64,000 bases of DNA from Liolophura sinensis (Eukaryota > Mollusca > Polyplacophora > Chitonida > Chitonidae): the NCBI RefSeq assembly GCF_032854445.1, contig NC_088297.1, forward strand, positions 2,605,991-2,669,990, in the 5' to 3' direction. Below, in pieces: positions 16,201 to 58,643 of the stretch. Numbering within the stretch: position 1 is the first letter of the stretch; every line of letters begins with the position of its first letter. Under the pieces are notes generated by a model. The model saw only the letters and a program-made list of their open reading frames with translations, was not told where the DNA came from and made no database searches. Both the position numbers and the translations under genes were made by a program.

Positions 16201-19200
16201 ACTTTGTAACTTTGCCTTGTACATATTCCCGATATATGTAGCCAACATATTTAGAAACATTTAGTTTTCATTCGTTTTATTTTATTCCTCTGTCCGCGAA
16301 CTACTGTTATAGCGTTTCGTGTCTCATTAGTTTCATTTTTTCGTAAATTTGATATGTAAAAGTTTATGGGTGAATGGAGGGTTTCAGGGAAGATCATTAT
16401 TGACTCAGTGTGTCATATAAGCGTTGAAGTTGAGATTAGGCTTGGGACTTGAGATTATCTTTATTTCTCGCTAATATCGCTTGTGTTTCACTTCAGCCCT
16501 TGATACAAGAGAGCTCATCAGGGAAGCTATAGCTTCATGGGAGACAAATACATGCATGCGATTCCCGGAAAACAATAGCCCTGGATCCACACCACATCTT
16601 CGATTTATTCAACATAATGGGTAAACGTTATCTTCATATCTGTTCCCCGAAACATACGTATTATAACAGACGTAATATATTTATGTCTCTGTTATTGTAT
16701 TTATTTATTTATTTATTTTATTGGTTTTTAACACCATACTCAACAATTTGTCACTTATACATTGACGACCTGTTTTATGAAACCAGGTGGCCCTTGGTGA
16801 GCCACTGACCCTTGTCAATCTGCTAACAAACTTTCTCATCTACGTGTTTACGTACCAATATTAGTGGGGGGGGGAGGGGGGGAGTGGCTCTCGTCAAACG
16901 GTAGAGTGCGCCAGCGCTCACGTAGGCGTTATTGTAACCAAGGCCTCTCGAAAACTGAGAAGCAACAAGTCAACTGCCCAAACACAAAAATGTTTGAATC
17001 CAAATAAGTAGCTAGTCTTTGAATGTCTCAGATTGTAATCTAGTACATGTATTCATTTGGTGGTCTTGCAGCACCCTGCGGATGATTTTGGGTTCCCACG
17101 GGGCTCAATCCCGTCCGCACCTCTCCTAATCTTGGCCGCCGTCGTATAAGTGAAATATCCTCAACTACGGCGTAAAAGTAAATAAATACAAATATATAAA
17201 TGATTTTGGGATGGGGCTAGTGTGGGATTATTGGTAAGATTTGCTCCAGCAATTGCTGTCAGCTAATGTACCCGGTTAACCAATGGTGGTTTCCTTCTGG
17301 ATAATGTTTTCCCTTTAACATTTGACATTTAACTCATATGTAAGGCTACGGCTTACATTTTTGAATATTGATCTATTCCACGTTGTTTCATTCACAGCCA
17401 CTATAATCTGTCACAATTAATAACAACTGATAGATCATTTCAAACTGTATATTTCCACAGGTGTTATTCCTACATCGGGAAAGATCCGGCTGGACAACCA
17501 GTTTCAATTGGTCGTGGTTGCGAAACTGTAAGTCATATTAACATTCAAGCTAAAATGCCTTAGGATAAAATATTATAATAAGAAACAGAATCTAAAACAC
17601 CATTAGTCATAAATATTGATCATAAAACATAGGTTACTAATGAAGCGCTGGATACAAAACCATGCTCTGCATTACATTCCCGGGTAAGTAACATTATCAC
17701 TTCAAGTGCCTGAACATGTCACTGGAAAAGAGAGATGTATTAAAGACTAAGTGTAATATAGGCATGGAGTGTAATAAAGACATTCGGTGTAATAATACCG
17801 GGAAGTGTAATAAAGACATTCGGTGTAATAATACCGGGAAGTGTAATAAAGACATTCGGTGTAATAAAAGCGTTGTATGTGAGACAAACCTGAATTATAA
17901 ACAAAAAAAGACATGAGGCGTGAGAAAGATCTGGCCGCGGTATCCCGAAGAGATTTTCGACTTAGGTCAAAATTTCAAACCCCTTTAAATTTGTTATTTC
18001 TCGTGTAACAAGGTCAAAAAAAGTTCTGTGTAAGTTTTTGTATAACAAATTTCAAATACCAAATTAAATGGTTGAAGTTTTGACTTTAGTTTAAGATTGC
18101 TTCTTGTTACCGAGCCGTGAGGTGTTAACACGCATGAGATTTAATGGGAAAATGAGATGTCATAAAAGCAATGGATGTAAAACAGATATGAGGTGTGATA
18201 AAGGCAGACGATGTAATGGATGTATGATGTGTAATAATTGGGAGATAACTCTAAAAAAAGTCCAAAATGCACTGGGTATGTCGCCATAACTCTTGTATTA
18301 GAACTATATCACCTCGTCGACGTTTTCTCACTCACTGTCATTTTTTTCATTGATGTATTTCAGTTGGGAATAATCTCTCATGAAATTGGCCACGCAATCG
18401 GATTTTCTCACGAACAGTCTCGCCCGGACAGAAATCGTTATGTCCGGATAAACTTCAGTAATGTCTGGCGAGGATTTGAAGGGAATTTCTACGCTAACAA
18501 ATGGAATACTTTTCATACAGAGAACACGCCATACGATTACAGCTCTCTCATGCACTACGCTTCCAGAGTAAGTACGAAGTTCCTTTGGCCGTTTGTGAAG
18601 TCATCATCGAATTCCTCTAAATTCGAATGAAAATGGTACGCACTATTGGGTTTTCTCGACCAGACACGTGACTCGTAAATTCTCGTTTAAATTTATGCCC
18701 CAATATACAGGTCTCGCGTGATAATGCGTGAAAAGCCAGTAGTGTACCAGGCTTCCTGTTTTCCATCAATATCGTGTGCATATTTGTATCTCTCATGTGA
18801 CAAAGTTCTTCAGTAACTTGACACAATTCGGTGATTTACGCAAGAAACTGGAGTGGCAAATCATGGTACCAATCAAAACTGCCTTAAAAATGAGTAGACG
18901 CTTTCCTTATTCTGGAAAATAACTTATATCATTACTGTGTTTTTTTTCTTTTTCCATCTCACAGGACTTCGCTCGAGACGTGTCGCGTGACACTCTGGAA
19001 GCCGTGGACCCTGCAATGAGGGCGACGATGGGCCAAAGAGACGAATTATCTTTCTGGGATATCAAGGGGGCCAACAGCAGATACTGTTCTCGTAAGTCAC
19101 AGCCAAAGCAGGGTCACCACGGGAAGAGCTCTTATAGACTCATACCTTCATAACAGGGTACAGCACAGAGAGTAAAACTGGAGTAGCGACGACCAATGTG

Positions 19201-46900: not shown

Positions 46901-49900
46901 GAATTGGTCTGCATTTGAAACTGATTCACGAACTTCATTTTAATTCTCATGTTATCCGGAGCCTAGAAAATCAGTCAGAACCGAAAAAAAGAAAATGTTA
47001 AAACCATATTCATTTCTCTGGTTGGTACTTTATACCGATGTTTAGACCATACAAATACCTCAACACCAATTATTTTAGACGGCTTACAATTTTAAAGCGT
47101 GGTAGTTTTTATACCGGTATTAAAGCTTTGCGCTGCTTTTAATACTTTTTAACTTAACACTCAGTTTTAGGTTTTCCACTTAACACCCGCTGTTAGGTTT
47201 TCCACTTAACACCTGCTGTTAGGTTTTCCACTTAACACCCGCTGTTAGGTTTTCCACTTAACACCCGCTGTTATGTTCCTTTGTCCTCATATCAATGTTT
47301 TAAAAGAAAACAAAGATTTAAACTTAAAAAAATCTCTACTTGATGAATTAATATATGTTCGCACCTCCGTAACTCAATGATAAATCAGATTTTCACCTAA
47401 GCTAAGCAATGAAAAACAACTCATAACGTGAATTTCTCTCTTCTCACAAAGGAGCAACTTAAATATCCATTGACATCGCAAAATACGCGAGACGTAATGT
47501 CCATGTGGGTTCTCTGGAGCCCAGTCCTCTTAGCGTTTCGTACATTTAAAAATAGACCCCGGGCAGCCAGCACCATCATGAGAATTATGTCATAGTCACG
47601 TAATGAGGCCTTTGAGCAAGTTGCCACGCACATAAAGTTAAAATTAAAAATAAAATTGTAGTGCTTGGTAAAATGTGGTTCTGTTTGTATGAAAGTATTT
47701 TCTTACAACACGGATGCGAATGATTTCCTCTTACCCTGAACAAAAATGCGCATGTCCTGTCGGTAGGATGTCCACCTGACTGGTACCCAGGTGACGAGAA
47801 GGTCCTCACAGTGGTGTCAGCCATTAGTAAGTTCGTACCACATTCCGCTGAGATGAAAAAATATATACAGAAACAGCATTTTAATATTTTGATTTTTTGA
47901 TGTATACAGTTTTATGAAGACCAGACTGACGTTTTTCGTATTTTAAAAAGGAATATTTCTCAGTTGCAAAACTAACAGCCAACTCTAACTGGTCAAGATT
48001 GTTAAAATGAGTTCATGGCAATTTTCAAGACTTACGTGTTTCAATCGGATCCTCGCAGAATGGCGGAGCGAATCCGGCGGGACATGCGCACTCGTCACAT
48101 TTGTTCGGGTTCCGGTAACCGTTGTTCTGACAGGCGCTCCATTCCAAAGTATTTCCACCACATCTGTCTGTAAACATTGATGAGGAAGCGTATCAAATGA
48201 CTGACAGATCAATCGACTGACCGATTATTTTCTTCATTTGTAGCGCTATTACCACAAACTGAATCCATATGTATTGAAGCACTATGACCTTCTGGCCAAA
48301 TGGACTCAAGGGATGGACAGATGGCGAGACCAACTGCTTCACTGATAACATTGGCGTGGTTTGGTTTAATTGTTTCTTAAAGGAAAAGACCTCTGAAAAT
48401 TGAAGTAGGCATCACTAAGTAGACCACTTAAACGTATGCATAAATATGCTTTTATTTATTTGATTAGATTTTTGTGAAAATAGTTTAACATTCTATGGTG
48501 GGCTCTATGGACCATATTATCAGAATTTAGGTACTCTGACGTCACAGGAATTTTTTTCAACGTTAATCACGACACTCAATGTTGGAATAACTCTTTTTTA
48601 CCCATGAGGAAAAGATTACTGAAATAATATTCCCAAAAATTCCTTCCTTCTCGTGAACATCAGGAAAAAGGGGTGCTGTGACGTCAGAGTTCTTAGATGT
48701 CGTCAATATGGCTCATAAAGCCCACCATAGTACTAAAATATTTGAAACCCTTCATATTTAAGCTTTCTTTTATTTTAACCTCATTTATAGCGTTTAGTTT
48801 TACGCGTGGATGAAACGCGGGATGTCGGAGGAGAACAGCACTTCAATACTTGCACACCAAATTGGTGGACCGGCCCGATGGCTCTGTTGGTGGAGCGGGC
48901 GCTCGGAGGTGGCAGATCCAGGGTCATTGCTGGGTCGGATCACACCTAAGACCTTACAACTTCCTCACTTCGCGTTCAGAATCAAGGGGAAGTGCAACGA
49001 CAGGTTGGCCTGTTAGTATGATGGCTCGAGCGGGACGGCTTACTTGTCTTCGGTAAGTCGTCTCATTGACGCAGCTCTATATCAAAGAGCGGTGGAAATC
49101 CGTCCAGTAAGAAGGAGGCACATTACATGTACATGCACTCTTAGGACCCTTTAGTTGTCATATGACTGACAAATTGTTAAGTACGACGCTGAATCCCAAG
49201 CACTCACTAACTCACCATATTGGTGAAAGACAAAGGATGTATAGTAGAAAGTTAGACTGTGCCTCACGAGCGTCGTTGACCGGTTTTTGTGATACCATAG
49301 CCCCGCAGGCAGTGAGAGAAAAATCGCTGTCAAGTCTATACTCACCAATACAATATCTCAAGTTGGCTACTTTCGCGTCATAAAACGACAAGTCGTTCCT
49401 CTGTCCAATCGTTTCTCGCATAGCGGGATCAAGGGAAATGACCGTGTCTTTGGTTCTGTCTTGGGCAAAGTCCTAATTAAGGAAACGACATAGTACAAAT
49501 ACATTAGCCAAAATGAGCATAAGTACCACAAAATTGTGTCGAGCAAGATAAACAGAGCAGGCATAAGAAAAATACAGCATGACCGACTGAGAGTATCATT
49601 TGTCTTGGGTCCTCTTAGGAAGGAAAATAGTGTAAACACAAGTGTTTTGAGACTGGTCGGCCGTAAACATTGTGGCAAGGCAGAACAGACACATAGATGT
49701 GTAAGAAGGAGACATTCCTGCGGTAGCACATCAACAGGACAGATAATATAAGGAAAGTCTTGTCTGTGTAACGAATTAATTGTACCGGTTCTTTTACATC
49801 ATAGGACATGCCATAAACTTAATATAAAGTTAAACAAAACATTAAACTACATTTGACTATCCCTCGAAAACATGCGAATCGGGACGAGTGTACATACCTT

Positions 49901-52900
49901 AGCGGCACAGTTCATGATCAGTCCGTAATGGTAAGGTGGAACGGAACGCATGTACATACCTTAGCGCCGTAGTGCATAATCGATCCTTAATCATAAGGCG
50001 GAATGGAACGCGTGTACATACCTTAGCGCCGTAGTGCATGACCGATCCGTAGTCGTAAGGCGGAATGGAACGCGTGTACATACCTTACCGCCGTAGTGCA
50101 TGACCGATCCGTAGTCGTAAGGCGGAATGGAACGCGTGTACATACCTTAGCGCCGTAGTGCATGACCGATCCGTAGTCGTAAGGCGGAATGGAACGCGTG
50201 TACATACCTTAGCGCCGTAGTGCATGACCGATCCGTAGTCGTAAGGCACGCCCTCAGTGTGATAGTTGAACCAGCTATTGGAGATAAAATTCCCGAGGAA
50301 TCCTCCAAAGACGTTGCCCTCGTTTATCCTGACGTAATTACTGCGGTCCGGACGTGACTGTTCGTGACTCAAGCCGACAGCGTGGCCGATCTCGTGCACA
50401 ACGATTCCCAACTGAAATGAAACAGAAACCACGATTACATCATCATTTTTTGCTATCTTACGAATAACTAGAAGGCATTCCTAGAACCCAGAGAGGCCGC
50501 CTTGGTCAAGGTGGTTTGCATGCCAGGGCTGCGTAATGACCCCGCTACCTGTCACCAATGCGATCCCTTCTAGTTCGTCAAGCTCATGCTGGCTTTCCCT
50601 CCAACCGAACGTGCCAAAGTCTGACACATCCTCCAGATGATCGCGGGTTTCCCCCGAGCTGCCCGGTTTCCTCCCGCCATAATGCTAAGTGAAATATTCT
50701 TGAGTACAGCGTAAAACACCCGTTAAATAAATAAATAAATAAATCAATAAATAGACCCCAAACCTCATCCAGCTAAATGTACAAATTTCCACACTAATTA
50801 CAAAGGGACAATATTTATTTGATTGGTGTTTTACGCCGTACTCAAGAGTATTTCACTTATACGATGGGGGTCAGCATTATGGTGGGAGAAAACCGGACAG
50901 AGCTCGGGGGACCTTCCAAGACCTTCTTTGCAAGACCTTCGTTACAATACCTCCCCACATAGAGAGGAGGCCGGCATGAGCTGGACTTGAACTCTCAGCG
51001 ACAATATTGGTGAGACTCTCCTGGTTCATTGCGCCGTGTTAATCCCCTCGGCCTCTGAGGTCCATGGATAGTTTTAAACCAATTAATGTGCATGTATTTA
51101 TGGAAATACTACACGATGATGATCCGTGTTTGACCAAATCTTCCATTCATAAATACACCGCATATATGGTTTTAAAACTTCGCCAAGGCGCGTTTGCGAG
51201 TACATTCATACGCCGCCATTAAAAACCCAGTATATAACAAATAAAATCAACAAAGCAAATACAAAAGGAGAAAAAAAAATAAAAAATTGAAGAAAACTTC
51301 ACCACAGAGATCACGCAAATGTTGTCTGTAAAAGTGTTTATACCAATCTTTTAGCATTCTAAACCCACAAAACGTAGACAAATGTTTATACATGTTATGT
51401 TAATGTTTTTATTATATCAGAATAGCTGTACTATAAGTTCAGTGATACACAGTATTACATGAACCGATTTTACCCAAATCTAGGTTGGGAAAAAGAATAC
51501 TTCACATCAATATTCCAAAATATGGCCCATACATCTCAACATTAAACTGTAATTTTCTGGACAAATGTAATCTAACTAATTAAATTAGTGCAGGTATGTT
51601 ATTTACAGGGTTTTTTTTTTTCCAGATTTAAATTTTAATATAAATTCATGAAATAATAATTATATATAGCAAAACGAAAGTGTAATTAGATATCTAGCTG
51701 ATTAAATGTTTAAGGTGATACATACATGTAGATGAAATGACAGTAAAGAGAACTCACGAATTCACATCCCCTTCCGATAGAGACAGGCTGCCCGGATGGG
51801 TTTTTTCCTATATAGGAATAGCACCTGATAACAGAGAACAATTGATGTGAAAATAACGTAAATGGCTCGAATTTTGGACGGACGTATGGAAGCCGGATGA
51901 GGACATCCATACCTTCTGCACGTGACATTCGCGCGCAATTTTCCCCGTCCTCTGTTCGCTATGCGTGGGACGAGATGTCTTCATACGGCTTCAATACAAG
52001 CGTGAATTTTTCTCATGAAATTTCAAAAATTTCAAAATTTCAAAAAAGTTCTACATCTTGACGGTTAACCTATGTCAACATTTTTATGGCTGCTTTAAAT
52101 ATAGATATTTACCCAGAGATTTTATTGCATGGCCAAGATAAAATAAACCTGTTACTGGGATGAACTACCTGCTGTGTTCAATTCAGACAAGGGTGCAATA
52201 TATTCGACGGCAGTGTAAAAGGGAATCGTTAACACCGTGATGGCGGGACAGGAGCACTTACCCCCGGTCTTTGATGAAAATTAGATGTGGCGTGGCTCCA
52301 GGGTTGTTGTTCTCCGGGAATCGTAAACAAGTCTTCTCCTCCCAGCTGGCAATACCCTCTCTCACAATGGCGTGATCCGCCGGGGCTAAAGTAAGAAGAC
52401 ATGAACGTGTCAGTTGTTTGTGACTTCGTGGCCCAGGAGCCTCATATCAATGACTCACACCTATACTGATAAAAGACATAATGTGAATTCCAAGTTATGC
52501 CAGGCTTAAATCTTAATACCAATTTTGGAATTATACTTAATTAAAATTAGTACGTGAGAAGGTCTGTCAGCAACCTGTGAATGGTCATTGGTTTCCGCCG
52601 GTCTCTGCCCGGTTTCCTCCGACCATAATGCTGACCGCCATCGTATAAGTGAAATATTCTTGAGTACGGCACCAGTCAAATAAAATAAATATATAAAACT
52701 GCGGGCATTTAGTCCAGACTAGAGTTAATACCGGGCTTAACTGCTAGTACACGTTTGAACACCTGTGCTTAGAGCACCAAGAAAATTAAAGTCTTTTTCA
52801 TATACATTTGTCTAGTTTACTTCTTCATGTTTAACACCATACTCAACAACTAGTCAGATGTAGCTTTTAATTGTATTTCCACAGATGCTTTACTTCATTC

Positions 52901-55874: not shown

Positions 55875-56683
55875 TCACGGAATAGCCAATGGCTTTGTGT
55901 TAGCCCACGGAATAGCCAATGCCTTTGTGTTAGCCCACGGAATAGCCAATGCCTTTGTGTTAGCCCACGGAATAGCCAATGCCTCTGTGTTAGCCCACGG
56001 AATAGCCAATGCCTTTGTGTTAGCCCACGGAATAGCCAATCCCTTTGTGTTAGCCCACAGAATAACCAATGCCTTTATGTTAGCCCACGGAATAGCCAAT
56101 GCCTCTGTGTTAGCCCACGGAATAGCCAATCCCTTTGTGTTAGCTCACGGAATAGCCAATGCCTTTGTGTTAGCCCACGGAATAGCCCATACCTTTGTGT
56201 TAGCCCACGGAATAGCCAATCCCTTTGTGTTAGCCCACGGAATAGCTAATGCCTCTGTGTTAGCCCACGGAATAACCAATGCCTTTGTGTTAGCCCACGG
56301 AATAGCCAATGCCTTTGTGTTAGCCCACGGAATAGCCAATGCCTCTGTGTTAGCCCACGGAATAGCCAATGCCTTTGTGTTAACCCACGGAATAGCCAAT
56401 GCCTTTGTGTTAGCCCACGGAATAGCCAATGCCTTTGTGTTAGCCCACGGAATAGCCAATGCCTTTGTGTTAGCCCACGGAATAGCCAATGCCTTTGTGT
56501 TAGCCCACGGAATAGCCAATGCCTTTGTGTTAGCCCACGGAAAAGCTAATGCCTTTGTGTTAGCCCACGGAATAGCCAATGCCTTTGTGTTAGCCCACGG
56601 AATAGCCAATGCCTTTGTGTTAGCCCACGGAATAGCCAATGCCTTTGTGTTAACCCACGGAATAGTCAATGTCTCTGTATAAG
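55875..56683 (+). repeat. 30-bp minisatellite, 27 copies, open on both strands
   Basis: Unit cacggaatagccaatgcctt plus tgtgttagcc. Because the period is a multiple of three and lacks stops, the plus strand reads (LAHGIANAFV)n for 261 codons and the minus strand reads (AIPWANTKAL)n. There is no sign of splice sites or signal peptide, so it is treated as noncoding. Confidence 0.95.
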
Positions 56684-57566: not shown

Positions 57567-57720
57567 GGCCGTAAGTGGGAAGGTCTGTCAGCAACCTGCG
57601 GATGGTCGTGGGTTTCCCCCGGGCTCTGCCCGGTTTCCACCCACCATAATGCTGGCCGCCGTCGTATAAGTGAAATATTCTTGAGTACGGCGTAAAACAC
57701 CAATCAAAAAAAAAAAAAAA
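57567..57720 (+). mobile_element. SINE-A, 5'-truncated, pure poly(A) tail, perfect target-site duplication
   Basis: Begins ggccgtaagtgggaaggtct; the tail is an uninterrupted A run rather than (aaat)n. tcaagtgataac flanks it exactly at 57555-57566 and 57721-57732. Likely a young insertion. Confidence 0.97.
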
Positions 57721-58643
57721 TCAAGTGATAACAGTACTAATTCCACACGTTGCCGAATTAATTACAAATAAACAAAGAGGAGGCAAATCAGCGGTAGCTG
57801 GGATCGAACTTGTGAACTCAATAGTCAAGTACTGATCGGGTGACTCACTGGCTGACGCTACTTAAGAATAAGGTGTTAAGGATAACATTTATTTTATTTA
57901 TTTATTAGAATGTCGTTCTCAAGAATTTTTCAAGAATGCGAAAGATATCAAGTTTGTTGCAGGCAAAACACTGAGCATGTCTAGAAAAGACTAAATTGTT
58001 GTGGACTGTACAGAACAAAATGGTGGCATCACCGTGCATCAAAATAAGTCTTTGTGAGAAAGAGGTCGATTTCTCTCTCACTCCTTAAACCCACGGAAGG
58101 TGTGCATAGATGCGTGACCTTCTTTGATTCATATACCACCTCTCATATCAAAGCTGTAAGATATACCTACCCCACCCCACCCCCAACCGCAACCCACACA
58201 CACACTGACCTCTCTGCCGTAGGTTTTCCACTTTTGTCACATTAAAAGAAATTCTTTTTTACCTGCAATCAAAAACGCAGATTACACCGACTAGTGCAGG
58301 TGTCGCGTGTGAAAAGACCTTCCGACAGATCGGTTGTTACCAGGGCACGGTGCCTATTGGTTCCCATTGTCACCCAAATTCAGCGACCCAGGGCACCTGC
58401 CCTACCACAACTTGTAATTATCTTAGGAAGCAAATTCGCATAGTTTGTCAAGTTGTTTTGTTTTTTCCTTTTTTTTTTCCTAATATTTCCGTTTTTTCTC
58501 CCCTCAAGCGCAACGCGCCATAGCTTCATGTCACGCTTCAAGGGTGATGTTTAGCTACTGGAGGAAGTGTCCCCGAGTTGTACGTAACTTTTTAATACCC
58601 TGATATTCAGCAGTAATACATGTATGAATGACACTTTTCTGTT

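Follow-up and report, generated by a model that had tools for sequence, protein, structure and literature searches.

The stretch analysed here, a window of 64,000 nucleotides (nt) of the genome of the chiton Liolophura sinensis (contig NC_088297.1, positions 2,605,991 to 2,669,990 of the forward strand), carries two paralogous astacin-like protease genes, designated gene 1 and gene 2, and in gene 2 the end of the catalytic exon together with the start of the following intron is repeated in tandem, giving six 5' splice sites (donors) at exact intervals of 62 base pairs (bp). This array is very probably a splice-site-spanning minisatellite of the class called 'mirages' in amphioxus, with donor 1, the copy at the authentic exon end, predicted to be the one normally used, and it is probably neutral. 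The assembly was published under the name Liolophura japonica, the species being later corrected to L. sinensis by the authors (PMC12441733).

Tandem Repeats Finder (TRF) reported one array, located at 49876–50247 of the window on the minus strand, with a period of 62, 6.0 copies, 91% matches and a score of 595, its length being 372 bp. When cut in register, each unit comprised 42 nt of terminal exon sequence followed by the initial 20 nt of the intron, and the GT dinucleotides of the donors started at 50207, 50145, 50083, 50021, 49959 and 49897 on the minus strand. All six donors read AAG/GTATGTACA and are intact, which confirms the six-fold donor array with exact spacing described in the initial annotation. 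Unit 1 (50188–50249, GT at 50207) contains the authentic exon end of 42 nt, donor 1 and the intron start, and unit 2 (50126–50187, GT at 50145) equals unit 1 except at two boundary bases. Unit 3 (50064–50125, GT at 50083) carries one further change and unit 4 (50002–50063, GT at 50021) equals unit 2, whereas unit 5 (49940–50001, GT at 49959) carries 7 further changes, one of which creates a stop in the coding frame of the exon, and unit 6 (49878–49939, GT at 49897) carries 14 and continues into the remaining intron. In a comparison over the 60 positions that remained without the two leading bases of each unit, units 1, 2 and 4 were identical and unit 3 showed one difference, so that units 1–4 agree at 59–60 of 60 positions, compared with 53 for unit 5 and 46 for unit 6 against unit 1. 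The inner copies are thus homogeneous and divergence is confined to the edge towards the intron, the unit on the exon side being coding. Read in the frame of the exon, unit 5 is interrupted by a stop and unit 6 encodes several amino-acid changes, so that these copies are not maintained as coding sequence.

The host exon (50208–50411, minus strand, as are all gene 2 features given here) is 204 nt long, ends in phase 0 and encodes the zinc site HEIGHAVGLSH and the Met-turn SVMHYG, corresponding to both hallmarks of the astacins (peptidase M12A), namely the HExxHxxGxxH zinc site and the Met-turn. In agreement with this, the joined exons of gene 2 match Pfam Astacin (PF01400) with an E value of 7.2e-46. 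The exon is preceded by an intron of 1346 nt (50412–51757) and followed by one of 735 nt as counted from donor 1 (49473–50207), after which comes the next exon (DFAQDRTKDTV..., 49346–49472). Translation across the possible junctions bore out that the full frame is obtained from donor 1 alone, which leads openly into the next exon, and that use of donor 2 would add 62 nt and shift the frame. The further claim that splicing beyond donor 2 meets a stop stands, as donors 3–6 all traverse a TAA at 50087–50085 within unit 3, but it requires correction for donor 4, whose 186 additional nt are divisible by three, so that it is in phase and fails solely through this TAA. The exon would measure 204 nt with donor 1 and 514 nt with donor 6.

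The array is present at a single locus of the assembly. A donor-spanning 25-mer, searched with up to three mismatches in the complete assembly (632 contigs, 609,464,459 bases), matched five of the six array donors and no other place, unit 6 being too diverged for a match, and the reversed control gave no hit; the array is therefore not a product of chance. A second haplotype or dispersed copies were likewise rejected, there being no donor 25-mer elsewhere and only one other DNA match to the exon body, 54 bp at 83% in a paralogue, in a DNA search that skips simple repeats.

The paralogous catalytic exon of gene 1 (18364–18567, plus strand) is also 204 nt long and ends in the single donor AGA/GTAAGT, as had been noted initially; only the gene 1-to-gene 2 rows of the all-against-all protein comparison of the window were kept, as the remainder was swamped by dispersed repeats. 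We fetched 20 further astacin loci, of which 19 could be scored (L022 was dropped, its zinc motif not having been found), giving 20 scored loci together with gene 1. None of these 20 carries an array at the donor after the Met-turn, and an array common to the protease family was thus rejected. The simplest explanation is that the array arose after the separation of the paralogues, which agrees with the order, gene duplication and then array, put forward originally on the basis of the single donor in gene 1. Several astacin loci contain long minisatellites of differing sequence 3' of the catalytic exon (L005:1096-1664, L006:1213-2201 and L007:963-1201, in coding-strand coordinates).

Similar arrays recur elsewhere in this genome. 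Using family models, 97 exons were collected (38 kinase, 2 from astacin genes whose exon structure differs, 17 ABC and 40 P450) and TRF was run on 1.2–2.2 kb around each, counting arrays with a period of at least 10 and a score of at least 50. Such arrays covered 7.1% of the flanks, and were present in 13 of the first 40 regions, while in the remaining 57 regions the coverage was 9.4%, with arrays in 25. A clear tandem array lying over the exon edge and repeating the splice signal was found at six of the 97 exons, three at 5' and three at 3' splice sites (acceptors). By family, these were 4 of 38 kinase exons (L026, L028, L037 and L055), 1 of 2 astacin exons (L061), none of 17 ABC exons and 1 of 40 P450 exons (L114). 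At 5' sites we found arrays of 65 bp in the kinase exon L037 (288–631), 67 bp in the kinase exon L055 and 57 bp in L061, another astacin gene; those at 3' sites have units of about 80 bp in L028 (57–632, plus strand), 37 bp in L026 (820–1137) and 32 bp in L114. In L028, seven copies of CCTGTTTCAG/ATAG, including the true site, stand ahead of the kinase exon. In L037, where the array start given by TRF coincides with the exon edge, the extra donors (GTAAGC) look nearer to the consensus than the authentic donor (GTATGC), making this locus a good natural test of position versus strength. Four of the six arrays were flagged by the automatic edge test, whereas the copy of exon bases in L037 and the edge in L114 were judged by eye. 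The same test also flagged L105 (two copies, weak donor) and L081 (two copies, unclear), neither of which was counted. Arrays lying within the intron, at about 15 nt (L042) and 12 nt (L074) from its edge, were not counted as straddling, nor was a 31-bp array in the P450 locus L099 (803–903, coding-strand coordinates), which appears to cover the last codons and the stop codon rather than a splice site.

The position of arrays relative to exon edges was further examined for periods of at least 15, few arrays underlying the resulting figures. At the 91 of 97 donor edges that could be scored, coverage was 5.1% in the first 20 intron bases, 4.4% at 20–60, 5.7% at 60–120, 4.7% at 120–240 and 6.0% at 240–420, so that arrays at donors are positioned as if indifferent to the splice site. 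The corresponding values at 92 acceptor edges were 3.3, 3.3, 7.2, 12.9 and 12.6%. Of the extra copies outside the true site, 15 of 17 at 5' sites, a count that takes in gene 2, have kept GT, and 12 of 15 at 3' sites have kept AG. Both are upper figures, as the walk along the copies ends at badly decayed ones, having covered 2 of roughly 8 in L026 and 7 of roughly 9 in L114. Retention of this kind is what a tolerated repeat would show.

From these data we infer the following history for the gene 2 array. A 62-bp stretch made up of 42 nt of exon and 20 nt of intron would have been duplicated in tandem after the split of the paralogues, and the array would then have been enlarged and homogenised by the usual minisatellite processes. 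Unit 1 would have retained the true exon end and donor 1, with the additional units falling in the intron; because the units are oriented from exon to intron, expansion would be free of protein cost as long as donor 1 is used. Its use is predicted from the length of the two flanking introns (1346 and 735 nt), with which the exon should be recognised as a unit and the donor closest to the exon's own 3' splice site would win; donor 1 is, in addition, the first to be transcribed. Rare splicing from donors 2–6 would yield frameshifted or stopped transcripts. Transcripts of this type are probably cleared by nonsense-mediated decay.

The predicted preference for donor 1 is in line with human minigenes carrying two identical donors and introns of 365 nt, in which the upstream donor was used exclusively in five of five cases (PMC9225289). 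Carranza and colleagues likewise describe, in human data, a preference for the upstream of near-equal donors in long introns, and put the transition to exon definition at around 250 nt (PMC9225289).

Several points weigh against a neutral minisatellite spliced at donor 1. Before correction for strength, human alternative 5' sites showed a downstream preference of about 60%, and in minigenes larger exons were skipped when both donors were weak (PMC9225289). Human tandem repeats at exon boundaries are frequently accompanied by alternative transcripts (in 66% of the intron changes of this kind; PMC2812944), and one Caenorhabditis elegans minisatellite is over-represented close to regions of alternative splicing (PMC4039745). 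In gene 2 itself, the donors are intact despite the divergence of units 5 and 6, so that weak selection on them is conceivable, albeit marginally: none of the 19 changes in the array falls within the donor 9-mer (P = 0.045), the longest unchanged run gives P = 0.11, and donor conservation is only marginally above that of the rest of the unit. Moreover, the survey is small, non-random and uneven, with edge arrays at 5 of the first 40 exons and at 1 of the other 57, and its edges derive from a simple score, so that the genome-wide rate is uncertain. Arrays near acceptors are possibly depleted (3.3% versus about 13% deep in the intron), and tolerance may therefore be incomplete there.

The initial annotation had suggested that the array could dose the output of full-length protease or provide redundant U1-binding sites; no positive support was obtained for dosing or for a useful U1 redundancy. 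In the former case, donors 2–6 would sometimes be used, the stop-bearing transcripts would be degraded and the number of units would set the output of full-length protease. The six intact and equal donors, the products of donors 2–6, which are only frameshifted or stopped, the unchanged donor 9-mer and the alternative transcripts often seen with human exon-boundary repeats (PMC2812944) would all fit such a splicing rheostat. We nevertheless consider it quite unlikely, as the upstream donor was the only one used in minigenes offering two donors of identical strength (PMC9225289), amphioxus mirages were reported without disturbance of splicing (PMC3087553; PMC3902484), and similar arrays occur in kinase and P450 genes, so that there is no tie to this protease in particular. 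A wider form of the idea, unlikely as well, would have the exon-edge arrays of this chiton vary in copy number among individuals, low-level use of the extra copies turning the number of units into a putative heritable dial of mRNA amount; the gene 2 array, with its six equal donors, might then, with the same small degree of confidence, be its clearest case. Concealment of the extra donors by RNA structure was rejected, since no unusually stable fold of the exon plus array was found; it was less stable than shuffled sequence (z = +2.4), 100 of 100 shuffles folding at least as well.

U1 protects introns from premature polyadenylation, and redundant binding sites for it could in principle aid exon recognition or shield the intron in this way. 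Six good donor matches do lie within about 310 nt, the donor scoring higher than 15 of 26 local donors. We regard this explanation as very unlikely, however, given that donor 1 is already of ordinary strength, that one donor suffices in the 20 scored paralogous loci and that 3' sites were amplified as often as 5' sites in the survey (three versus three), which U1 does not explain.

An incipient intron or recursive splicing, in which each AAG/GT would serve both as acceptor and donor and steps of 62 nt would be removed with restoration of the frame, is highly improbable. A splice joining the GT of one unit to the AG of a later one would indeed take out whole multiples of 62 nt, and repeats of this type have been put forward as a source of introns (PMC3087553). 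As acceptors, however, the unit AGs scored only −3.0 to −5.2, whereas 21 astacin acceptors averaged 8.5 with a lowest value of 2.6, on a scale that is rough, the own acceptor of the next exon of gene 2 scoring just 1.72. Thus, by acceptor scoring, the combination of a pyrimidine tract and an acceptor AG right before GT that characterizes recursive splice sites was not found at the unit AGs. A mutated AG in unit 5 scored 1.35, close to the value of the next exon, and is left as a curiosity.

Tandem repeats commonly cause assembly errors. An artefact is hardly credible in the present case, as the PacBio high-fidelity (HiFi) reads behind the assembly (mean 8,347 bp, 14x) far exceed the array of 372 bp (PMC11068029) and substitutions set units 5 and 6 apart from the others.

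Taken as a mirage-type minisatellite, the chiton array has its closest counterparts in amphioxus, where minisatellite-like tandem copies of 5' or 3' exon boundaries were described in Adh3 and in globin genes, the globin loci being BflGb6 and BflGb9 (PMC3087553), and further in PGBD5 and troponin C (PMC3902484). Regular splicing was deduced from Adh3 data and from reverse transcription PCR of the globins, and BflGb6 carried six versus three units on two haplotypes (PMC3087553). The chiton array likewise copies an exon–intron boundary in tandem and keeps the signals in many copies, and its homogeneous units 1–4 and diverged intron-side units resemble the situation in BflGb6. It differs from the amphioxus mirages in its mollusc host, in the 62-bp unit and in the occurrence of such arrays at 6 of 97 sampled exons. 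With intron gain by AGGT duplication, the array shares the tandem copy holding a splice signal, but it requires no new intron and its unit AG seems a poor acceptor. The internal tandem repeats found at human exon–intron boundaries in segmental duplications are similar in that minisatellite expansion at an exon edge alters gene structure, yet in their case alternative transcripts are frequent and new introns have been proposed (PMC2812944). Minisatellites have also been reported in the metallothionein introns of earthworms, none of them across a splice site in the excerpted account (PMC12783039). Our literature search yielded no splice-site arrays of molluscs or chitons, which is weak evidence as most subscription papers lay outside it; in the excerpts of one mollusc paper the word 'minisatellite' stood only in the reference list (PMC3862624). 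What is new here thus seems to be the phylum, namely the mirage class in a mollusc. Its presence in kinase, P450 and astacin genes and at both exon ends suggests that introns rich in minisatellites can generally give rise to mirages, and that exon edges tolerate such arrays. They amount to experiments of nature, with as many as seven near-identical splice sites in competition, and the rule that the spliceosome picks the nearest site across the exon can be tested with them in a living animal, using the RNA-seq data that exist for the digestive gland, foot, gill, gonad and heart of the species (PMC11068029).

Other repeats and gene families were seen in the course of this work. A 30-bp minisatellite of about 27 copies at 55876–56678 of the window has a unit length that is a multiple of three and contains long open frames on both strands, and is probably non-coding. 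A dispersed repeat with frames like GVLRRTQEYFTYTTAASIMVGGNRAEP, among the matches listed, was seen at 50688–50852, 57591–57761 and elsewhere in the window, and is likely to be a mobile element. In the assembly, four kinase matches with frames of 396 amino acids, about 7.7–8.8 kb apart and one with an internal TAG, lie at G000:C8:30110489-30136174, and a fifth was located on the opposite strand at position 30225363 of C8, the group having the appearance of a recent tandem family. Finally, eight matches to the mollusc haemocyanin domain were found in one cluster of the assembly.

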